NCBI RefSeq assembly: GCF_030264275.1
Contig: NZ_CP127165.1
Location: 2,344,001 to 2,408,000, forward strand
Reading direction: 5' to 3'
Source of the DNA: Marivivens sp. LCG002
Lineage (GTDB): Bacteria; Pseudomonadota; Alphaproteobacteria; Rhodobacterales; Rhodobacteraceae
DNA length: 64,000 bases
Shown here: positions 53,796-63,679 of the stretch, piece by piece
How the letters are laid out: every line of letters starts with the position of its first letter
Position numbering within the stretch: the stretch's first letter is position 1
Translations under genes and position numbers: made by a program
Notes under the pieces: generated by a model
What the model was told of the DNA's origin: nothing
Database searches by the model: none
Seen by the model: only the letters and a program-made list of their open reading frames with translations

Positions 53796-54812
53796 TCATA
53801 CCGTCCCGACCACTTCGCCAAAGGCATTGTCCTCGTGATAGGGGCAGGACACCAGATGCCCCTCGGCCACTTGGGCGACTGCGGGCCTCTCGCCTGCACA
53901 GGCCTCTCGCGCGATGGGACACCGCGTGCGGAACACACAGCCCGACGGCGGATCGAGAGGCGACGGAAGCTCGCCCGAGATCACCGCACGCGGACGCGAC
54001 TTTTCCAGAACAGGATCGGGCACGGGCACCGATGAAATAAGCCCCCGCGTATAGGGATGGCGCGGATTGCCGGTCAAAGCCTCGGCCCCCGCGACCTCCA
54101 TCATCCGTCCAAGATACATCACCGCGATGCGGTCCGAGATGTGCTTTACCACGCTCAGATCATGGGCGATGAAAATCATCGTAAGCCCGAGGTCTTTTTG
54201 CAGCTCCTTGAGAAGGTTCACCACCTGCGCCTGCACCGACACATCGAGCGCCGAGACAGGCTCATCACAGATGAGCAGCTTGGGTTTGAGGATCAGCGCG
54301 CGCGCAATCCCGATCCGCTGGCACTGCCCGCCCGAGAATTCATGCGGATAGCGGTTCACAAGGTTCGGCAACAGCCCGACCCGCTCCATGAGGTCCTGAA
54401 CGCGCTTGCGCACTTCGGCCTTGGGCAGCTTGGGCTCATGCGTGATCAGAGGTTCGGCGATAATCTCGCCCACGGTCATGCGCGGATTAAGCGCGGCAAG
54501 CGGGTCCTGAAACACCATCTGCACATAGCGCCGATGATGCCGACGCGCCTCGGGCGCCATGCTCAAAAGGCTCTCACCCTCGAAAAGCACGTCCCCGCCC
54601 GTGACAGGCGCAAGGCCGCAGATCGCACGGGCAATCGTGGATTTACCCGACCCGCTTTCACCAACGACACCAAGACATTCACCGGGCTGCACGTCAAAGC
54701 TCATGCCGCCGACCGCCTGAAGCGACTTGTGCGGCGTCCACGGCCAAGCTCCCGAAGGTTTGATGTCGAAAGTCACCCGAAGGTCACGCACCGAAAGAAT
54801 GGGATCAGACAT
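53796..54812 (-). CDS. oppF: Oligopeptide ABC transporter ATP-binding protein OppF
   Basis: One of two ATPase subunits of a peptide-type importer. 338 residues with Walker [10 protein letters not shown] (51-59), signature [16 protein letters not shown] (about 158-173; LSGGQ variant), Walker [13 protein letters not shown] and H-loop [10 protein letters not shown]. The C-terminal cysteine cluster ([14 protein letters not shown]) is the oligopeptide-transporter domain. It overlaps oppD by 8 nt and ends at the shared terminator. Confidence 0.96.
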
Positions 54813-55773
54813 GGCTCAGCTCCTCTGTCGGAACGTGACAGGCACGGCGATGCGCCTCGCCTGCAATGACGGGCTTTGCACTCTGGCAAACATCCCGCAC
54901 TTCGGCGCAGCGCGGCGCAAAGGGACAGCCCTCGGGCAGTCGGGACATATCCGGTGGCTCACCCGCGATGGCGAGCAAAGCCTCGTCCTTGCGGTCGAAC
55001 CGCGGCACAGCCCGCAAGAGCCCGCGCGTATAGGGATGGCTCGGACGCGCGAAAAGAGCTTCGGTCGCGGCCTCCTCCATCACCTGTCCGCCATAGAGAA
55101 CCAGCGTGCGGTCACAAAACCCCGCCACGACCCCGAGATCATGCGTGATCAGGATCACAGCCGTGCCGAACTCCTGACGGATATCACCGAAAAGCTCCAT
55201 GATCTGCGCCTGCACCGTCACGTCGAGCGCCGTCGTCGGCTCGTCCGCGATCAACAGCTTGGGCTGACACAAAAGCGCCATGGCGATCATGATCCGCTGC
55301 CGCATCCCGCCCGAAAACTCGTGCGGATACATGGTGATGCGCGCCTTGGCATCGGGAATGCGCACCGCGTCGAGCATCTTGGCCGCCTCGGCCACCGCAT
55401 CACGTTTGCTCATCCCCTTATGAAGCTGGAGCACCTCGGCCATCTGGTCCGAAATCCGCATATAGGGATTGAGCGAAGTCATCGGGTCCTGAAAGATCAT
55501 CGCCACTTCGTTGCTTCGAATGCGGTTCAGCTCTTTGCGCGACATGGTGAGCAGGTCTTTGCCTTCATAGAGCGCCTGCCCCGTGGCCTTGCCGTTCCGC
55601 GCCAAAAGGCCCATCGCGGCAAAGGCGGTCTGGCTCTTGCCCGATCCGCTCTCGCCTACGATGGCAAGGGTCTCGCCCTTTTCGACGGTGAAGGACACTC
55701 CGTTGACGGCATTGACCGCGCCGTCGCCGGTCTGGAATTCGACCCTAAGGTCTTTGATCTGCAAAAGGCTCAT
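54805..55773 (-). CDS. oppD: Oligopeptide ABC transporter ATP-binding protein OppD
   Basis: The second ATPase subunit. 322 residues with Walker [10 protein letters not shown] (40-48), signature [16 protein letters not shown], Walker [13 protein letters not shown] and H-loop [13 protein letters not shown]-terminal cysteine cluster [15 protein letters not shown] is intact; in related transporters it binds an iron-sulfur cluster. It lies 3 nt after oppC. Confidence 0.96.
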
Positions 55774-55776
55774 GGG

Positions 55777-56700
55777 TCAGCGGTCCTTGGGATCAAGTGC
55801 ATCACGAAGGCCATCGCCCACAAAGAAGAAGGCATAAAGCGTGATGAGAAAGAAGAAGAGCGGGAAACCGATCATCCACGGCGTGCCGAAGCCGAGCTGG
55901 CTCGCACCGGCGGAAATCAGCGCCCCGAGCGAGGTCATCGGTTCCTGAATCCCGAGCCCGAGAAAGCTGATAAAGCTTTCCGTGATGATCAGCTGCGGAA
56001 TGAGGAGCGTTGCGTAAACGATCACGATCCCCGCAAGGTTCGGAACGATGTGACGCAGGATCACGGTAAAGGGTTTCACCCCGGTTGCGACGGCCGCCTC
56101 GACGAACTCCTTGTTCTTGATGGTCAGCGTCTGTCCCCGCGCGATGCGCGCCATATCAAGCCATGAAATCAGCCCGACCCCGACAAAGAGCATCACCATC
56201 GAGCGGCCAAAGACCACAAGCAGCAGAATGATCACGAACATGAACGGAATGGCGATAAGGATATCGACGATCCGCATCATCACGCTGTCGATCCGCCCGC
56301 CCATATAGCCTGCAAAGGCACCATAGAGCGTGCCGACGACAACGGCGACAAGGCTGCCGATCACACCGACGAGGATCGAAATCCGCGTGCCCTGAACGAC
56401 GCGGGTATAAAGATCCCGCCCCTCCTGTTCGAGCCCGAAGAAATGCGCGTTCTCGATACTCGGAGCGCCAAGGTTCTTGATATCGCGGCGAAGCGAGAAG
56501 TCCACGAAATCGGGTTCATGTGGGCTCAGATACTGGCCGAAGAATGCGAAAACGAGAACAAAGCCGAGAAGAACAAGGCTGATCAAAGCGGCGCGATTGC
56601 GGACAAAGCGGCGAAAGGCATCATGCCAGAGGCTCCGCCCCTTGATCGCTTGGGCATTGGCAACACCCGCGAGCTGGTCTGCTGTAGTGCGACTGAACAT
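55777..56700 (-). CDS. oppC: Oligopeptide ABC transporter permease OppC
   Basis: Inner-membrane permease, 307 residues, about six helices. The N-terminal OppC_N helix (RNRAALISLVLLGFVLVFAFFG) precedes the five-helix permease domain; the EAA loop is EAAVATGVKPFTVILRHIVPNLAG (about 210-233). It partners OppB; separated from it by 9 nt. Confidence 0.96.
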   Translation of the reverse strand: MFSRTTADQLAGVANAQAIKGRSLWHDAFRRFVRNRAALISLVLLGFVLVFAFFGQYLSPHEPDFVDFSLRRDIKNLGAPSIENAHFFGLEQEGRDLYTRVVQGTRISILVGVIGSLVAVVVGTLYGAFAGYMGGRIDSVMMRIVDILIAIPFMFVIILLLVVFGRSMVMLFVGVGLISWLDMARIARGQTLTIKNKEFVEAAVATGVKPFTVILRHIVPNLAGIVIVYATLLIPQLIITESFISFLGLGIQEPMTSLGALISAGASQLGFGTPWMIGFPLFFFLITLYAFFFVGDGLRDALDPKDR

Positions 56701-56709
56701 GCTGCCCCC

Positions 56710-57633
56710 TCAGTAACGGATTTTGGGGTCGATCCACGCATAGAGCAGGTCGACAATCAGGTTGAAGAGAATGGTCAGCGCCCCCATGAGGATCGTGATC
56801 CCCATCATCACCGAATAGTCACGGTTAAAGGCGGCGTTGACGAAATAGACGCCGATCCCGCCGGTCGAGAAATAGCTGTCCACAATCACGGACCCCGTCA
56901 CCATAAGAACAAAGGCGGGCCCGAGGTAGGAAAGCACAGGCAGCATCGCAGGCTTGAGGGCGTGGCGCAGAATGATCCGCCGATCCGAAAGCCCCTTGGC
57001 CCGCGCGGTGCGGATGAACCCGCTATTGAGCACCTCGAGCATCGAAGAGCGGGTGATCCTCGCGATCGACGCCATATAGGAGGTCGAGAGCGCGATCACA
57101 GGCAGGATGAGATACTGGAGCTGCCCGCCGTTCCATCCCCCACCGGGGAGCCAACCAAGCCAGAGCGTAAAGACAATCACCAGCATCGGGGCCATGACAA
57201 AGTTCGGAAGCGACTGCGCGCCGATGGAAATCCCGACGGCAAGATAATCAAGCCACGTATTGTGGCGGATGGCGGCCACAACGCCCAAGGTCACACCGAC
57301 GATCACGGCTAAAACGAACGACCAGAAGCCATAGGTAAGCGTGACGGGGAACCCCTGAGCGATGATGTCGTTGACGCTGCGGTCCTTGTATTTGAACGAC
57401 GGGCCGAAATCGAAATGCACCACGACGTTCCAGACATAGTCGAAGATCTGTTTCCAATAAGGCTGATCAAGCCCGTATTTCGCCTCGATATTGGCAAGCA
57501 CTTGCGGCGGCAAAGGACGCTCTGCGTTGAACGGACCACCGGGCGCGGCGAACATCAGAACAAAGGAAATGACGATCAGCACAAGGATCGTCGGAATGGC
57601 GACCGCAAATCTGCGGGCGATAAAAGACAGCAT
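56710..57633 (-). CDS. oppB: Oligopeptide ABC transporter permease OppB
   Basis: Inner-membrane permease, 307 residues from MLSFIARRFAVAIPTILV (AGAGG ahead of the ATG at 57633; the frame opens further to 57675). Six helices, EAA-type loop RTARAKGLSDRRIILRHALKPAML (about 200-223). The insert between helices 1 and 2 (GLDQPYWKQIFDYVWNVV) is typical of OppB. A hairpin separates it from oppA upstream. Confidence 0.96.
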   Translation of the reverse strand: MLSFIARRFAVAIPTILVLIVISFVLMFAAPGGPFNAERPLPPQVLANIEAKYGLDQPYWKQIFDYVWNVVVHFDFGPSFKYKDRSVNDIIAQGFPVTLTYGFWSFVLAVIVGVTLGVVAAIRHNTWLDYLAVGISIGAQSLPNFVMAPMLVIVFTLWLGWLPGGGWNGGQLQYLILPVIALSTSYMASIARITRSSMLEVLNSGFIRTARAKGLSDRRIILRHALKPAMLPVLSYLGPAFVLMVTGSVIVDSYFSTGGIGVYFVNAAFNRDYSVMMGITILMGALTILFNLIVDLLYAWIDPKIRY

Positions 57634-57663
57634 CTCGAAACCTCTTGCAGAAATGCCAAAGGC

Positions 57664-57688
57664 CCGCGCCCCCATGACAGGGGCGCGG
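57664..57688 (-). promoter_or_regulatory. Hairpin between oppA and oppB
   Basis: A 9-bp perfect GC-rich stem (CCGCGCCCC / GGGGCGCGG, 7-nt loop) lies in the 76-nt gap between the oppA stop and the oppB start, with no T-run. Such hairpins after binding-protein genes protect the upstream message and lower expression of the permease genes. Function here is inferred. Confidence 0.65.
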
Positions 57689-57709: not shown

Positions 57710-59353
57710 TTATTCGGCGACTTTGTAGAGTTCGCGGGAATACCAGGTCTGCTGGACGTTCTCCAAGGGCCAGCCCTTGATCGCATCGTTCAGCATGAAG
57801 TTTTCGGTGTAGTGATAGATCGGGATGATCGGAACATCAGCCGCGATGATCTCTTCCACCTTGGTGTAATTCGCGCTCGGATCGGCAAGGGTCTTGGACT
57901 CGGCCAAAAGCGCATCGACTTCGGGGTTGTTATAGCCGGCGTCGTTATAGCCCGAGCTCGAGTTCATCAGATCGAGGAAGGTCGAGGCTTCGTTATAGTC
58001 GCCACACCAGCCCGCACGCGAAACGTCGAAGTTGCCGTTGCCCCGCTCTTCAAGGAAGGTCTGCCATTCCATGTTCGCTAGCGTGGTTTCAACGCCGAGC
58101 GTCTGCTTCCACATCTGGCTTACGGCGATAGCGACCGACTTGTGCGCTTCCGAGGTGTTATAGAGGATTTCAAGGCTGATCGGGTTATCCGAGCCATAGC
58201 CTGCCTCGGCAAGCAGAGCCTTGGCCTTTTCGTTGCGCTCGTCTTGGGTCATGCCTGCGGCTTCCACCATCGGCACCTCGAAGCCCGCAGTCGCGCCGGG
58301 GGTAAAGGTATAGGCGGGGAACTGACCTGCGGCCAGAACGTCCTCGACGATGATGTCGCGGTCGATGGCAAGGCTCAGAGCCTGACGCACGCGCACATCC
58401 TTGGCCCACTCGGGCGCGGTGTCACGCATGTTCATGTTGTAGTAATAGGAGCAAAGGCTCGGCACCGCGATGGCTTCGTTCGGATACTCCTGAACGAGGC
58501 TCGGGTATTGCCCCGGCGGGAGCCCTTGGGCGGTCTTGTCGATCTCGCCTGCCTGCCAACGGGTCAGCGCTTGGGTCGAGTCGTTGATGATCAGCATCAC
58601 GACCTTGTCGATCAGCACATTGTCCGCATCCCAATAGGTCGGGCTCTTTTCGCGGACAAGACGCTCCTGAAGAACGCGCTCGGTGAGGACATAAGCACCG
58701 TTGCCGACGAAATGCTCGGGCGTGACCCAGTCGTTGCCGAACTCTTCAACCACATGCTGCGGCACGGGGAATGTGGTGCCATGCGTCACCATCTGCGGGA
58801 AATAAGGAAGCGGCTGGGTGATGCGGACTTCGAGCGTCTTGTCGTCGATCGCTTTGACGCCAAGCTCGGTCACAGGCTTTTCACCCGCGATCACGGCGGC
58901 GGCATTCTCGATGCTCATCAGCTCGATATACCACGAATAGGGCGAGGCGGTCTCGGGGTTCGCCGCACGCTGCCATGCATAGACGAAATCACCGGCGGTG
59001 ACGGGCGTGCCGTCCGACCACACCGCATTGTCGCGCAGCGTGAAGGTATAGGTCATCTGGTCTTCGGATACCTCATACCCCGTCGCAACACCGGGAACGG
59101 GGTTGCCGTCGGGGTCCTGGTTCAACAGACCTTCGAAGAGATCGCGCACAACGGCAGAGCCTTCGACATCCTCGACAAGACCCGGATCAATGGAGGGAAT
59201 TTCGTCGATGGTGGAATAGGTGAACACCTGTTCGGCGGCCAAAGCCTCGCCGGTCACGGGGTGCGTGGCGCCATGGCCCTCGGCATAGACAGCCGTCCCG
59301 ATCAGAACGAGAGCCGCCGCAGTAGTCGCTTTCAACGTATTTTTCAGTGTCAT
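57710..59353 (-). CDS. oppA: Oligopeptide-type ABC transporter substrate-binding protein OppA
   Basis: Periplasmic family 5 extracellular solute-binding protein, 547 residues. Signal peptide 1-24 (ends AVYA). Family features: YSTIDEIPSIDPGLVEDVEG, YEVSEDQMTYTFTLRDNAVWSDGTPVTAGDFVYAWQRAANP (about 95-130), YYNMNMRDTAPEWAKDVRVRQALSLAIDRD (about 305-335). The OppA/MppA subgroup resemblance suggests peptides, but two-gene amine catabolism under the same operator motif leaves other amine substrates possible. GGAG lies 7 nt ahead of the ATG. First gene of oppABCDF. Confidence 0.95.
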   Translation of the reverse strand: MTLKNTLKATTAAALVLIGTAVYAEGHGATHPVTGEALAAEQVFTYSTIDEIPSIDPGLVEDVEGSAVVRDLFEGLLNQDPDGNPVPGVATGYEVSEDQMTYTFTLRDNAVWSDGTPVTAGDFVYAWQRAANPETASPYSWYIELMSIENAAAVIAGEKPVTELGVKAIDDKTLEVRITQPLPYFPQMVTHGTTFPVPQHVVEEFGNDWVTPEHFVGNGAYVLTERVLQERLVREKSPTYWDADNVLIDKVVMLIINDSTQALTRWQAGEIDKTAQGLPPGQYPSLVQEYPNEAIAVPSLCSYYYNMNMRDTAPEWAKDVRVRQALSLAIDRDIIVEDVLAAGQFPAYTFTPGATAGFEVPMVEAAGMTQDERNEKAKALLAEAGYGSDNPISLEILYNTSEAHKSVAIAVSQMWKQTLGVETTLANMEWQTFLEERGNGNFDVSRAGWCGDYNEASTFLDLMNSSSGYNDAGYNNPEVDALLAESKTLADPSANYTKVEEIIAADVPIIPIYHYTENFMLNDAIKGWPLENVQQTWYSRELYKVAE

Positions 59354-59423: not shown

Positions 59424-59434
59424 TCTGATCAAAA
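59424..59434. promoter_or_regulatory. TGATCA operator-like site, proximal, upstream of oppA
   Basis: TGATCA core at 59426-59431, reading TTTTGATCAG on the minus strand, 73 nt before the oppA ATG. It is the degenerate partner of the perfect site at 59446, with centres 22 bp apart (two helical turns), so a dimer pair could bind on one face. Confidence 0.55.
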
Positions 59435-59445
59435 CTTTTTTACTC

Positions 59446-59455
59446 TTTGATCAAA
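59446..59455. promoter_or_regulatory. TTTGATCAAA operator-like palindrome, distal, upstream of oppA
   Basis: A perfect 10-bp palindrome 93 nt before the oppA ATG. The same sequence recurs upstream of the aminotransferase operon and, with one change, upstream of the GntR gene between them. Confidence 0.6.
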
Positions 59456-59589
59456 AACGCAAGCGGGATTAGCGATCTTTCCGTTGCGTCACCTGTTCAA
59501 CAGCTTACCGAGCACCAAGTTCCTTTAGGTCTGCTGTTTTTTGCGCCATAGTGCGGCGAAACGACCGAACCCAACCGAAAGAGCCGCCG

Positions 59590-60156
59590 ATGGACCTGCT
59601 TGACCTCACCGAACGCAAAGGGCTTCCCGATGCGCTCCGTGTCCTCTTGGAAACCTTCCCCCGTGAAGACTGGCAAAACGATCCCGGATACAACGGCCTC
59701 ATCAGCTTCTGGCTGGAACGGCATCTGACCTTTCGTCGGCTTTTGGACGAAATGACGAATGAAACCATGAGCTTGCTGGACAAGAAATCCGACGAGCGGC
59801 GCTTTGCGGGGCGCATCTCGCGCTATGGCGGCATCTTTGTGGAACAGCTCCACGGCCACCACCAGATCGAGGATCACCACTATTTCCCCGTGCTCTCGGC
59901 ACGCGACATCCGCCTCAAGCGCGGCTTCGACATTCTGGACAAGGATCACCATGCGCTCGACGGGCTTTTGAACGACTTTGTAGGCAGCGCCAACGCCGCG
60001 CTGACCAAACTCGACGACAAGAACGCCCTTTTGCCCGCTGCCGAAAATTTCCGCCGCGATGTCGTGCGCCTGACGGGTTTCATCGACCGCCATCTCACCG
60101 ACGAGGAAGATCTCATCGTGCCTGTGATCCTCAAATACGGCACCCATGGTCTTTGA
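59590..60156 (+). CDS. Hemerythrin-like (HHE) domain protein
   Basis: A 188-residue soluble protein from ATG 59590 (a GTG at 59551 would add 13 residues with no better ribosome binding site). All-helical HHE fold with the expected metal ligands: ERHLTFRRLLDEM (helix 1), HGHHQIEDHHYFPVL (helix 2), LDKDHHALDGLLNDF (helix 3) and DRHLTDEEDLIVPVI (helix 4). A di-iron site binding oxygen, NO or sensing iron is inferred. It sits between the divergent opp operon and the GntR gene, but the latter has its own promoter. Confidence 0.88.
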   Translation: MDLLDLTERKGLPDALRVLLETFPREDWQNDPGYNGLISFWLERHLTFRRLLDEMTNETMSLLDKKSDERRFAGRISRYGGIFVEQLHGHHQIEDHHYFPVLSARDIRLKRGFDILDKDHHALDGLLNDFVGSANAALTKLDDKNALLPAAENFRRDVVRLTGFIDRHLTDEEDLIVPVILKYGTHGL

Positions 60157-60157
60157 A

Positions 60158-60167
60158 TTTGATCATG
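60158..60167 (+). promoter_or_regulatory. TGATCA operator-like site over the GntR gene promoter
   Basis: TTTGATCATG starts 2 nt after the hemerythrin stop and 26 nt before the GntR ATG. The inner TTGATC could act as the -35 element, with GCTAAA or TAAAAG downstream as -10, so binding would block transcription. Suggests autoregulation. Confidence 0.55.
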
Positions 60168-60192
60168 TCCGAGAACTTGGGCTAAAAGGATC

Positions 60193-60882
60193 ATGAAACC
60201 GCATGAGGGTCAGAAATTGAACGAACACATGGCCAAGATTCCGACCCACGAGTTGGTCTATCGCCAGATCCGTGACATGATCCTGTGCGGCGAGCTGGAG
60301 CCGGGTCAGGCCGTCACGATCCAGGGGCTTGTCTCCCATCTCGAAGCGGGCATGACCCCCGTGCGCGAAGCGATCCGCCGCCTCACCGCCGAAAGCGCTC
60401 TGGTCTTTCAGGGCAATCGCCGCGTGAGCGTTCCCGTGCTGACGCTCGATGAAGTCAACGAACTCGCCTTTGCGCGGCTCGCCATCGAACCCAAGCTCGC
60501 CTATTGGGCGGCTTCCAAGCTCACCGTGCCCCAGATCGGCCAGTTGGAACAGATCGATCAGGATCTGAACAAGGCCATCGCGCGCGGCGATGTGCGCGAT
60601 TATCTCTACTTCAACTACCAGTTCCACGCCCAACTTTATGCGGTGTCGGGCGCGAATATCCTTGTCTCCATTGCGGATTCCCTCTGGCTCCGCATGGGGC
60701 CAAGCCTTCGGGTGATTTGCGGGCGCTACGGCACGACGAACCTTCCCGACATGCATGCGGGGGCGATTTCGGCGATGAAGCGCGGCGATGCCCAAGCGGT
60801 GATGGACGCCATCAAAGCCGACCTTGAACAAGGCATCGATCAGGTCCGCGCCTCGCTGCTCGAAGCTACAAACGGTCTCTGA
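60193..60882 (+). CDS. GntR family (FCD/FadR-type) transcriptional regulator
   Basis: A 229-residue regulator. N-terminal winged helix (about 16-80; LVYRQIRDMILCGELEPGQAVTIQGLVSHLEAGMTPVREAIRRLTAESALV) and C-terminal FCD ligand domain (about 92-215; LAIEPKLAYWAASKLT, YLYFNYQFHAQLYAVSGANILV, DMHAGAISAMKRGDAQAV) with the His and Asp residues expected for metal/carboxylate binding. Its 3' end overlaps the convergent oxidase by 17 nt. Operator-like TGATCA sites in front of itself, oppA and the aminotransferase suggest it controls both units. The effector is presumably an amine, amino acid or peptide catabolite. Confidence 0.93.
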   Translation: MKPHEGQKLNEHMAKIPTHELVYRQIRDMILCGELEPGQAVTIQGLVSHLEAGMTPVREAIRRLTAESALVFQGNRRVSVPVLTLDEVNELAFARLAIEPKLAYWAASKLTVPQIGQLEQIDQDLNKAIARGDVRDYLYFNYQFHAQLYAVSGANILVSIADSLWLRMGPSLRVICGRYGTTNLPDMHAGAISAMKRGDAQAVMDAIKADLEQGIDQVRASLLEATNGL

Positions 60883-62167
60883 GCGAGAACCAGAGCATCC
60901 CGAGCACCAGCAAAGGCGCGCGCAGCAACGCCCCTCCCGGAAACGCGGGCGTGGGCACTTTGGCCATGAGATCGAACCGCTCGGCCTGACCCGCAATCGC
61001 CTCCGAGGCAAGCTGCCCTGCGAGCGTCGCCATCGCCACACCATGCCCCGAATAGCCCGACATCGACAGGATATTCCCCGCCAGCCGCTCGAAATGCGGC
61101 ATACGGTTCAGCGTGATCGCCAACGTGCCGCCCCATGCGTAATCGATCGGAACATCGGCAAGCTGCGGATAGACTTCGGCCATGCACGGCCGCACCAAGG
61201 CGTCGATCCGCGCAGGGAACCGATAGCCATAGGTCTCGCCGCCGCCGAAAAGCATGCGATTGTCCGCCGAAAGACGGAAGTAGTTGATCACGAACTTGGA
61301 ATCCGCAACGGCCTCTTTCATCGGGAGCACTTGGCCAAGCTGCGCATCGGTCAACGGCGCGGTCGCAACGATGTAATTGTTGATCGGCATCACCCGCGCC
61401 GCAACCTTGGGCTCAAGCCCTCCAAGGTATCCATTCGCCCCAAGAACGACAAAGCGCGCCTTGACCGAACCCTGTTCCGTTCTGACGGTCGCTGGGTCCC
61501 CTCGCACAACCTCGGTCACGCGGCTTTGCTCGAAAATCCGCACGCCTTTGGACTTGGCAGCCCGCGCCAATCCCAGAGCGAATTTCAGCGGGTGGATATG
61601 CCCCGAGCCGTAATCCACGCTGCCCCCATGGTAGAAATCCGACCCGACACGGGCGCGGATGTCATCGCGCGACAGCTTTTCGGCCTGCGTATAGCCATAT
61701 TCCTCGCGGAGCTTGTCGACCGCTGCATGGCTATGTTTGACGAACCGCGCACGATGATCCGCATGGATCACACCGGCGACCCATTCGTAATCGATGCCGT
61801 AGCGCGCCGCGAGATCGTGGATCAACGTCACCGAAGCCTGAGACAGATCCCAAAGGGCGCGCGCATCGGCCTTGCCCATCATCGCTTCAAGCTCGTCCTG
61901 CTCGAGCCGCTGACCGCCCGAGACCTGACCGCCGTTGCGACCGGACGCGCCGAAGCCCACGCGCTGCGCTTCGATCAGCACCACATCATAGCCCATCTCG
62001 GCCAGATGGAGCGCCGAAGACAGCCCCGTAAAGCCGCCGCCCACAACACAAACGTCACAGGTGAGGTCACCCGCAAGCTGCGGCTCCACCTCGGGCAAAT
62101 CCGCGCTCGCGGCATACCAGCTCGACGGATAAGCGCCGAGCCGGTCGTTGGCCGTCAAAAGGTCCAT
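60866..62167 (-). CDS. FAD-dependent amine oxidoreductase (PuuB / gamma-glutamylputrescine oxidase-like)
   Basis: A 433-residue DAO-family flavoprotein from MDLLTANDRLGAYP (ATG at 62167 overlaps the aminotransferase stop in TAATG). FAD dinucleotide motif VVGGGFTGLSSALHLAE (41-57), followed by GFGASGRNGGQVSGGQ, the usual histidyl-free PuuB/OrdL signature, and C-terminal GYSGHGVAMATLAGQLASEAIAGQ. OrdL/PuuB enzymes oxidise gamma-glutamylputrescine or related secondary amines. Substrate is inferred from family and partner only. Confidence 0.92.
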   Translation of the reverse strand: MDLLTANDRLGAYPSSWYAASADLPEVEPQLAGDLTCDVCVVGGGFTGLSSALHLAEMGYDVVLIEAQRVGFGASGRNGGQVSGGQRLEQDELEAMMGKADARALWDLSQASVTLIHDLAARYGIDYEWVAGVIHADHRARFVKHSHAAVDKLREEYGYTQAEKLSRDDIRARVGSDFYHGGSVDYGSGHIHPLKFALGLARAAKSKGVRIFEQSRVTEVVRGDPATVRTEQGSVKARFVVLGANGYLGGLEPKVAARVMPINNYIVATAPLTDAQLGQVLPMKEAVADSKFVINYFRLSADNRMLFGGGETYGYRFPARIDALVRPCMAEVYPQLADVPIDYAWGGTLAITLNRMPHFERLAGNILSMSGYSGHGVAMATLAGQLASEAIAGQAERFDLMAKVPTPAFPGGALLRAPLLVLGMLWFSLRDRL

Positions 62168-63561
62168 TACGGAGCCTCGAACATCCCGTCCTTGACGAGA
62201 TCGGCATAGCATTCATCAAGCGACTTGCGGGCACGCTTGATCAACTCGTCCGCTTCCGCACGGGTAAGAACGAGCGGCGGAGCGATGATCATACGGTCGC
62301 CCACATGGCGCATGATAAGATCGTTGCCGAAACATTTCTCGCGGCAGCGATACCCCACAACACCGGGCGCAGTCTTGAACGGTGCGCGGGTCGCCTTGTT
62401 CGGGGTCAGAGCAAGCGAGGCCATAAGACCGACGATCTTGGTCTCGCCCACCATCGGGTGATCACCAAGGCTGTGCCACAGCTCGGCCAGATACGGCCCG
62501 ATGTCGTTCTTGACGTGATCGACGATATTCTCTTCTTCGAGAATACGCAGGTTTTCCAAAGCGACAGCCGCCGCCACGGGGTGACCCGAATAGGTATAGC
62601 CGTGGTTGAAGTCACCTGCCTCACCGACCACATTCGCCACCTCGTCACAGACAAGCGAAGCACCGATCGGCGCATAGCCCGACGAAAGCCCCTTGGCGAT
62701 GGTCATGATATGGGGACGGATGCCGACCGTCTGGCTTCCGAACATATTGCCTGTGCGTCCGAACCCGCAGATCACCTCGTCCGCGATCAGAAGGATTTCG
62801 TATTTGTCGCAGATGCGCTGGATTTCGGGCCAATAGCTGTCGGGCGCGACGATCACACCGCCCGCACCCATCACGGGTTCACCGATAAAGGCGGCCACGT
62901 TCTCTTCGCCGAGTTCAAGGATCGCGGCTTCAAGCTCTTGTGCACGGGCGACGCCGAACTCTTCGGGGTCCATATCGCCACCCTCGACCCACCAGTTCGG
63001 CTGGTTGATGTGGTGGATACCCGGAATGATGCCGCCCTGCGCATGCATCCCCGCCATCCCGCCAAGGCTCATGCCCGCCATGGTCGAGCCGTGATAGGCG
63101 TTCTTGCGGCTGATCACGATCTGTTTTGTGGGCTTGCCCTTGGCGTGCCAATACTGGCGCACAAGACGCAGGTTCGTGTCGTTCGCTTCCGACCCCGACC
63201 CCGCAAAGAACACGTGGTTGAGATCACCGGGCGCCATCTCGGCCAGCTTGGCGGCAAGCGCAATCGCGGGCACATGCGAGGTCTGGAAGAACGTGTTGTA
63301 ATAGGGAAGCTCGCGGATCTGCTGCGCGGCGACATCCGCCAGCGTGTCGCGGCCATAGCCGATGTTCACACACCAAAGACCCGACATGGCGTCAAGAATG
63401 CGGTGCCCCTCGCTATCGGTGAGCCACACGCCCTCGGCGCGGGTGATGACGCGCGCGCCCTTTTTGGCAAGAGCCGCAGCCGCCGTGAACGGGTGCATGT
63501 GGTGCGCCGCATCAAGAGCCTGAAGCTCGGCGGTGGGGGTGTTGTTCGTGATCTTTTTCAT
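62167..63561 (-). CDS. Class III PLP aminotransferase (polyamine/putrescine--pyruvate type)
   Basis: A 464-residue fold-type I aminotransferase. PLP lysine Lys290 in TIAKGLSSGYAPIG, Asp261 (LLIADEVICGFGRTG) and the phosphate loop GSGSEANDTN (121-130). The N-terminus (DAAHHMHPFTAAAALAKKGARVITRAEGVWLTDSEGHRILD) matches the omega-amino acid/SpuC group that transfers amino groups from putrescine, cadaverine or spermidine to pyruvate. AGAAGGA precedes the ATG. It is first in a two-gene operon with the FAD oxidase. Confidence 0.94.
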   Translation of the reverse strand: MKKITNNTPTAELQALDAAHHMHPFTAAAALAKKGARVITRAEGVWLTDSEGHRILDAMSGLWCVNIGYGRDTLADVAAQQIRELPYYNTFFQTSHVPAIALAAKLAEMAPGDLNHVFFAGSGSEANDTNLRLVRQYWHAKGKPTKQIVISRKNAYHGSTMAGMSLGGMAGMHAQGGIIPGIHHINQPNWWVEGGDMDPEEFGVARAQELEAAILELGEENVAAFIGEPVMGAGGVIVAPDSYWPEIQRICDKYEILLIADEVICGFGRTGNMFGSQTVGIRPHIMTIAKGLSSGYAPIGASLVCDEVANVVGEAGDFNHGYTYSGHPVAAAVALENLRILEEENIVDHVKNDIGPYLAELWHSLGDHPMVGETKIVGLMASLALTPNKATRAPFKTAPGVVGYRCREKCFGNDLIMRHVGDRMIIAPPLVLTRAEADELIKRARKSLDECYADLVKDGMFEAP

Positions 63562-63636
63562 CGCACATTCCTTCTGGGACGGCTGGCAAATTCGGAAACG
63601 GTCCGCGCCCGACCTTCGGGCCGTGGATTTGGCCCA

Positions 63637-63664
63637 AGGATATGGGGCAACGAAGCGGTGTCAA
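63637..63664 (-). promoter_or_regulatory. Sigma70-type promoter of the aminotransferase/oxidase operon
   Basis: On the minus strand, a perfect TTGACA (63664-63659) and TATCCT (63642-63637) are 16 nt apart, giving a leader of about 70 nt. It lies 3 nt from the TGATCA operator. Confidence 0.65.
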
Positions 63665-63667
63665 TAT

Positions 63668-63679
63668 ATTTGATCAAAT
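63668..63679. promoter_or_regulatory. ATTTGATCAAAT operator next to the aminotransferase promoter
   Basis: A perfect 12-bp palindrome located 3 nt upstream of the -35 element. It is the longest copy of the motif shared with oppA and the GntR gene, placed where a regulator could contact or occlude RNA polymerase. Confidence 0.65.

Follow-up and report, generated by a model that had tools for sequence, protein, structure and literature searches.

A short palindromic DNA site and a transcriptional regulator of the GntR family appear to travel together through the Rhodobacteraceae, where they very probably switch genes of polyamine uptake, breakdown and synthesis. The regulator, which carries an FCD domain, is encoded in a 64,000-nucleotide stretch of the Marivivens sp. 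LCG002 genome (contig NZ_CP127165.1, positions 2,344,001 to 2,408,000 of the forward strand), here called the window. Its gene, gntR, lies near an oligopeptide importer operon (oppABCDF) and a gene pair for an aminotransferase and a flavin adenine dinucleotide (FAD)-dependent oxidase. Comparison of this locus with its relatives makes it quite likely, in our judgement, that the protein governs polyamine import, catabolism and, in part, synthesis through the operator TTTGATCAAA.

An earlier, sequence-only reading of the window had proposed that one GntR/FCD regulator, through a shared operator, wires the Opp importer to polyamine-type catabolism. The single regulator, the shared operator and the polyamine-type catabolism stand; the centre of the regulon does not. 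Its core uptake system is potFGHI, just outside the window, and not opp: a window-like oppA was found in only one of 41 other gntR neighbourhoods.

Conservation of the operator with the regulator gene

How consistently does the site accompany the regulator? Orthologues (at least 42% identity; at least 162 bits) occur in 95 of 198 genomes of the family, Marivivens sp. LCG002 included, drawn at one genome per genus except within its own genus. A separate class of GntR paralogues lies at 34-38% identity and at most 150 bits, and 20 of 115 matched genomes hold only the paralogue. A scan of genome contigs for GntR returned a single locus, from Marinomonas; relatives were hence taken from a genome search. 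Our main set comprises 41 neighbourhoods, the window's own excluded: this Marinomonas locus and 40 from the family (17-20 kb each). The 40 were taken from 94 orthologues outside the window's genome, mostly the best-scoring; those near contig ends were skipped, and 30 short loci received no separate analysis. In all 41 the gntR start was estimated from tblastn matches.

In every one of these loci the core TTTGATCA, on either strand, is found no more than 150 bp upstream of the estimated gntR start; outside these regions it occurs 63 times in 799 kb. The palindrome TTGATCAA is found upstream of gntR in 34 of 41 loci, against a mean of 0.3 (maximum 3) in Markov samples. It is the commonest 8-base palindrome there, and the runner-up occurs in three loci. 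A potF gene diverges from gntR within 400 bp in 33 loci, all with the core between the two genes, and AT1, the aminotransferase gene, comes after gntR in 37 loci; 36 of these gaps contain the core. The sequence-only reading had held that the motif should be conserved at these loci in relatives, and the conservation proves very strong.

Where does the operator lie relative to the promoters? In 26 of the 41 loci it runs into a TATTCT box downstream of gntR (TTTGATCATATTCT), and in 28 a TTGAC box stands 4-14 bp before TTTGATCATATT. RNA polymerase should be blocked by a protein bound at these positions.

A wider draw of 398 genomes from the phylum contained 12 that matched GntR: ten family members and two from other parts of the class. 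Ten loci came from this draw, eight from the family (two, G075 and G076, already in the main set); of these eight, seven had the site upstream of gntR and one only downstream. On a plasmid of Qingshengfaniella alkalisoli the annotated order is FAD oxidase, glutamine synthetase (GS), two permeases, potA and a polyamine substrate-binding protein, followed on the divergent side by GntR, aminotransferase, FAD oxidase and aldehyde dehydrogenase, with sites at -114, +652 and +681. GntR of Aliiroseovarius crassostreae precedes GS and two FAD oxidoreductases and has a single site at +702, none upstream. A Sulfitobacter plasmid GntR (50% identical), beside fructose bisphosphatase, has no pot cluster adjacent and zero sites in 13.7 kb.

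Sites at distal genes

Exact sites in the Marivivens genome also precede a lysine/ornithine-decarboxylase-like gene (ODC, for ornithine decarboxylase; a weaker copy lies 30 bp away), an M20 amidohydrolase gene, the agmatinase gene behind the latter and a second PotA-type ATP-binding cassette (ABC) operon. The regulon appears to extend to ornithine decarboxylase, agmatinase and this second polyamine-type ABC operon.

We compared such genes in 30 genomes with the regulator (GntR+), hand-chosen and mostly the best-scoring, and 30 without an orthologue (GntR-), chosen mostly for completeness. The latter comprise 15 listed without a match, ten inferred from their absence among the 115 matched genomes and five with the paralogue only; at most 14 candidates were scored per genome in the orthologue search, and a missed orthologue in this set is possible. 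Loci were available for 30 of 47 agmatinase hits. The region considered was 400 bp upstream of ODC, where core and exact motif give equal counts, and 300 bp upstream of the other genes. In GntR+ genomes other than the window's own, sites precede ODC in 5 of 10 places, agmatinase in 5 of 19 and oppA in 2 of 8. In GntR- genomes the core precedes ODC in 0 of 6, agmatinase in 0 of 11 and oppA in 0 of 12 places (11 genomes), and neither core nor palindrome precedes any of ten potF homologues. Exact sites stand beside polyamine-type genes in seven of seven cases in G129 and four of five in G163, with gene labels taken from matches to the Marivivens proteins, from sequence reading and, for part of the genes, from scans against family models. 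G163 is a draft genome in which gntR has no pot genes within 20 kb; its pot/AT1 locus and oppA, on other contigs, still carry sites.

The agmatinase site lies 11 bp before the start codon. This position, like the operator positions at potF and AT1, argues for repression. In six genomes the presumed -35 box of ODC, read by eye, has the sites 30-89 bp upstream of it, which would fit activation or a further promoter upstream that escaped notice.

The 5' leader of ODC is nearly invariant in GntR+ and GntR- genomes alike (in the Marivivens genome, on C1, roughly the 107 bases that precede the gene; L005:1595-1712). Two blocks, of 22 and 17 bases, show no difference among the 15 sequences aligned, out of 17 loci; the alignment left out L104, a diverged copy, and L106, which shares the first block but has a longer leader. 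The consensus fold pairs CGTCTCC with the GGAGATG ribosome-binding and start region, with most pairs invariant and covariation hardly informative. Rfam 15 gave no match over the leader in L005, L091-L093 or L103 (where 16 weak matches all lie elsewhere), nothing at the gathering threshold in seven loci and nothing for the Marivivens leader at E up to 1. It may be the same thing as the alphaproteobacterial 'speF' leader and is possibly a sensor of polyamine or ornithine that controls translation.

Exceptions and alternative explanations

Several results count against the assignment of the operator to a polyamine regulon under GntR. The sequence-only reading had named a background frequency across the genome as grounds for its refutation, and by count alone that is what we see: TTTGATCAAA occurs 18 times in the 3.16 Mb genome, and among the first 100 of 153 WWWGATCWWW sites we saw 10 copies where half-site frequencies predict 12.25. 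Only seven of the 18 precede polyamine-type genes (those at 59446, 63669 and 64009 and those of ODC, the M20 amidohydrolase, agmatinase and the second Pot operon); three are intragenic, and the remainder have no clear polyamine link. In G117, a genome of the same genus, 6 of the 15 sites examined (of 18) stand at polyamine-type genes. The pooled distal comparison of ODC, agmatinase and oppA, 12 of 37 in GntR+ genomes versus 0 of 29 in GntR- genomes, gives a Fisher value of 0.0004 for related genomes with kinship ignored; taken singly, ODC (0.06), agmatinase (0.08) and oppA (0.15) are each only suggestive, and a site is absent from 25 of the 37 distal genes in GntR+ genomes. G145, a GntR- genome, carries ATTGATCAAT and CTTGATCAAT upstream of oppA, and a tally by the bare palindrome TTGATCAA instead of the core becomes 11 of 37 versus 1 of 29. 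Outside the main set, L169 and L206 have the site only downstream of gntR, L173 has it at -192, and the exact motif was not found at the two class-level orthologues (L175, L176; 41-45% identity). Because of the G145 palindromes and the exceptions outside the main set we lowered our confidence by a very small step; we still hold the polyamine assignment to be likely.

Two of these cases have features of their own. Upstream of gntR, L175 and L176 carry palindromes like TTGTGATCACAA and TTGTGATCGCAA instead of TTTGATCAAA, which suggests that the operator flanks have changed in these lineages while the TGATC core was kept. The two TTGATCAA-type palindromes of G145 (L126) lie 13 bp apart, 185-198 bp before oppA; they may be coincidental, belong to an orthologue that the search missed, or be read by a different protein.

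Could the motif, a six-base core between common AT-rich flanks, recur by chance alone? The bare TGATCA core occurs 42 times in the window, against a shuffle mean of 16, and by our gene calls just 7 of them fall between genes. When two mismatches are tolerated, the full motif is found 27 times against 20.6 expected, a count reached in 11 of 100 shuffles. This chance-level count, together with the genome-wide frequency at the half-site expectation, speaks for coincidence, and motif counts across the 198 genomes did not separate GntR+ from GntR- by eye. A control with the reversed pattern was unfair, because CTAG is rare in bacteria. We dropped enrichment of TTTGATCAAA as proof, since the count equals the half-site expectation; significance rests on position and conservation. 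Conservation of position at 41 of 41 loci refutes chance as a complete explanation and leaves it scarcely credible, though it may hold for single distal sites.

A harder question is whether GntR is the protein that reads the palindrome. Another transcription factor might control the same genes through it, with GntR binding something else. In favour of this alternative, many of these genomes hold the second GntR paralogue, and G145, which has the paralogue and no orthologue, has the palindromes before oppA. The site nevertheless tracks the gntR gene, its own promoter included, at 41 of 41 loci. The core is present at 0 of 39 potF, ODC, agmatinase and oppA places where the orthologue is missing, and the paralogue-only genomes readable for these genes (G063, G120 and G145) have zero cores there. 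We therefore give another reader little chance, and GntR remains the favoured one.

Two further exact sites lie at genes of other kinds. The site at G000:C1:258565 (L003) is about 80 bp before an acyl-CoA dehydrogenase gene, possibly for glutaryl-CoA dehydrogenase, which would fit cadaverine breakdown; the NCBIfam glutaryl-CoA model scores 214.8, below its cut-off of 470, and FadE models score higher. The site at G000:C2:122354 (L018) is flanked by a regulator of LacI type and an operon that resembles xanthine dehydrogenase genes, both named by eye, with no evident polyamine link.

Operator copies and genes of the locus

The window contains four ten-base sites (Table 1), with TGATCA cores at 59426, 59448, 60160 and 63671. 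By our gene calls all four are intergenic and upstream of gene starts. The palindromes that the sequence-only reading had placed before gene starts at 59426, 59446, 60158 and 63668 are present, at those positions or within two bases of them. Its remark that no such intergenic copies occur elsewhere in the window holds for the flanked motif, since the intergenic cores with a flank (TTTGATCA or TGATCAAA) are exactly these four; it fails for the bare core, which has three further intergenic copies (13079, 33465 and 44271), none with a TTT or AAA flank. The pair before oppA has a start-to-start spacing of 22 bp, about two helical turns, and sits between divergent oppA and a hemerythrin-domain gene that the earlier reading did not mention. 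The copy before gntR is a one-sided match, and TTTGATCAT variants likewise lie upstream of gntR in L051, L054, L055 and L079. A fifth copy, an exact site at window coordinate 64009, 9 bp beyond the window's end, precedes the putrescine-importer-like operon potFGHI. The local set thus comprises opp, hemerythrin, gntR, oxidase, aminotransferase and pot, with five operator-type copies.

Table 1. Operator copies and genes of the gntR locus in the window
Feature	Position	Strand	Remarks
Operator copy TCTGATCAAA	59424..59433	none	Before oppA (minus strand) and, divergently, the hemerythrin gene
Operator copy TTTGATCAAA	59446..59455	none	Second member of the oppA pair
Operator copy TTTGATCATG	60158..60167	none	25 bp ahead of the gntR translation start; core and one complete half site
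Operator copy TTTGATCAAA	63669..63678	none	Next to, and upstream of, the promoter-like pair TTGACA-N16-TATCCT of the minus-strand aminotransferase operon
GntR regulator with FCD domain, 229 aa	60193..60882	+	Pfam GntR and FCD above cut-off
Hemerythrin-domain protein	59590..60156	+	Pfam Hemerythrin on the longer frame 59551-60156; start 59590 by gene call
oppA, oligopeptide-binding protein	57710..59353	-	Pfam and NCBIfam matches, solved relatives
oppB	56710..57675 (gene call: start 57633)	-	OppB equivalog 446.5 bits, cut-off 388
oppC	55777..56700	-	Pfam and NCBIfam
oppD	54805..55773	-	Pfam and NCBIfam
oppF	53796..54812	-	Pfam and NCBIfam
Class III aminotransferase AT1, SpuC/putrescine-aminotransferase-like	62167..63561	-	NF005682 755.9 bits (cut-off 510)
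FAD-dependent oxidase, DAO family	60866..62167	-	Pfam DAO

The regulator scores 45.6 with the Pfam GntR model (cut-off 27) and 60 with FCD (cut-off 24.3). An Asp/His/His/His metal site is typical of many FCD proteins. The presumed ligand positions here, assigned by eye, are N141, H145, H188 and D210, so that two of the four deviate from that pattern; 36 of the 42 sequences aligned agree at these positions, and the remaining six have gaps there. The hemerythrin gene, wedged between oppA and gntR and possibly co-transcribed with gntR, is beside gntR in one of the 41 other loci, L055, from a same-genus genome.

AT1 lies close to characterised putrescine/polyamine transaminases, which points to a SpuC-like polyamine aminotransferase. 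Its solved relatives (among them 6gwi, 5e-185, and 9j4z, 3e-178) include a putrescine aminotransferase and a polyamine:pyruvate transaminase by name, and its three best solved matches bear no substrate name. The oxidase, likened earlier to PuuB, could be placed in the DAO family only. No NCBIfam model reaches its cut-off among the best 25 of 48 matched; the best, AmaA (217.8 of 600) and Phn_aa_oxid (193.4 of 632.8), fall far below, and no solved relative was found at 1e-15. Beyond 64009 follow a PotF-like binding protein (434.9, below the PotF cut-off of 636), a PotG-like ATPase (487.9, below 613; above the potA subfamily cut-off, at 405.9 against 355.6), two permease-like proteins, a second aminotransferase and a glutamine-synthetase-family protein. 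According to PMC10130141, mutants showed that potFGHI of Ruegeria pomeroyi (SPO3466-3469) serves putrescine, cadaverine and spermidine.

The Opp importer

All five Opp proteins (a family 5 binding protein, two permeases and two ATPases with an oligopeptide C-terminal region) score above the Pfam cut-offs. NCBIfam Opp models are the best for each, and only OppB passes; OppA (539.9 of 947), OppC (362.3 of 433), OppD (507.1 of 575) and OppF (507.4 of 540) fall short. Does this operon serve the dedicated import of amine-containing peptides or conjugates, feeding the aminotransferase/oxidase pair, as the sequence-only reading had it? The opp, gntR and amine genes are neighbours with shared sites in the Marivivens genome; opp also adjoins gntR in G129, the only other such case in the loci examined; and an oppA of G163, on a different contig from gntR, has TTTGATCAAC at -100. 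Against such a role stand the scarcity of oppA at other gntR loci, the adjacent PotF-type importer operon and the character of OppA itself. Residues 35-545 align with solved peptide-binding OppA chains (3e-145), with which OppA has the stretches RAGWCxDYNE, LYNTSxxHK and LCxYYY in common; stretches of this kind hold both peptide ends. One of the two distal oppA genes with a site, in G034, is a 42% homologue (TTTGATCATA). The G129 oppA has no site within 300 bp, and no oppA was detected at 1e-100 in G117, from the same genus. We tested the amine-conjugate proposal through the OppA motifs, found no support for it and consider it improbable.

The regulon under GntR that we favour has Opp as what looks like a lineage-limited local addition; on a modest reading, some lineages brought peptide uptake under a regulon that responds to polyamines. 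Polyamines affect OppA synthesis in E. coli. Transporters of the oligopeptide (dpp/opp) type have already been reported in predicted amine regulons of MocR regulators (PMC5320631).

Discussion

The regulator and its operator occur together, next to polyamine-type target genes and over or beside promoter-like boxes. We infer that GntR binds the site and represses, and we propose the effector because of the target genes. The protein would be a polyamine-responsive regulator that recognises TTTGATCAAA and tolerates TTTGATCATA and one-sided variants. Most likely it represses its own gene, potFGHI, the aminotransferase/oxidase operon and agmatinase by occupying their promoters or the adjacent DNA, and would come off the DNA once the FCD domain has bound a polyamine or an early product of its breakdown. 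In the lineage of Marivivens sp. LCG002 the same operator, as a tandem pair, would have been placed before an ordinary oligopeptide importer, oppABCDF.

PuuR and PauR are the polyamine repressors of enterobacteria and pseudomonads, and PuuR-type proteins carry a cupin domain. They resemble the GntR protein, as proposed, in controlling putrescine uptake and catabolism, but belong to an unrelated family, XRE as opposed to GntR/FCD; by Pfam the protein has neither an XRE helix-turn-helix nor a cupin domain. According to PMC5320631, PuuR belongs to the XRE family and represses the puu genes, and the MocR proteins GabR/GabR2 and TauR, likewise amine regulators of the GntR superfamily, have predicted targets that include puuA, puuD, speB and dpp/opp-type ABC transporters. 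MocR proteins have an aminotransferase-like C-terminal domain that binds pyridoxal phosphate; by Pfam this domain is absent from the 229-residue protein here, which has GntR and FCD only, and the target set is another. E. coli McbR (YncC) has a regulon of biofilm and colanic acid functions unlike the one proposed here; many FCD proteins have a metal-binding Asp at the N141 position. McbR (PDB 4p9f) is the closest solved FCD relative by sequence (2e-16, a partial match over residues 23-184); it has N at the N141 position, as here, and Arg at the H145 position, unlike here.

Family models liken the pot operon beside gntR to potFGHI of R. pomeroyi, for which the accessible part of PMC10130141 names no regulator. 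We met no regulator for this polyamine importer in the partly accessible, largely open-access literature searched, and the parts of PMC4344238, PMC5343134 and PMC8437039 available describe no polyamine GntR regulon. Searched as text, the operator motif gave nothing on this subject among the matches listed and, combined with GntR, an unrelated match only. GntR and TTTGATCAAA are a putative new regulator-operator pair among polyamine regulators.

A bolder version, which we think rather doubtful, makes the system a polyamine homeostat: one GntR/FCD protein would repress import, catabolism and, here, peptide uptake from sites within or next to the promoters concerned, yet activate ODC from its more distant upstream sites, with the conserved ODC leader layered on top. 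If it were true, polyamine excess would lower synthesis and raise consumption via a single operator sequence, and the ODC mRNA leader may hide the ribosome-binding site.

Polyamines in seawater serve as a labile source of nitrogen and carbon. The regulon proposed here would help to read pot transcripts in marine metatranscriptomes, and it supplies, for roughly half of the family genomes sampled, a gene, an operator of ten bases and a list of predicted targets.

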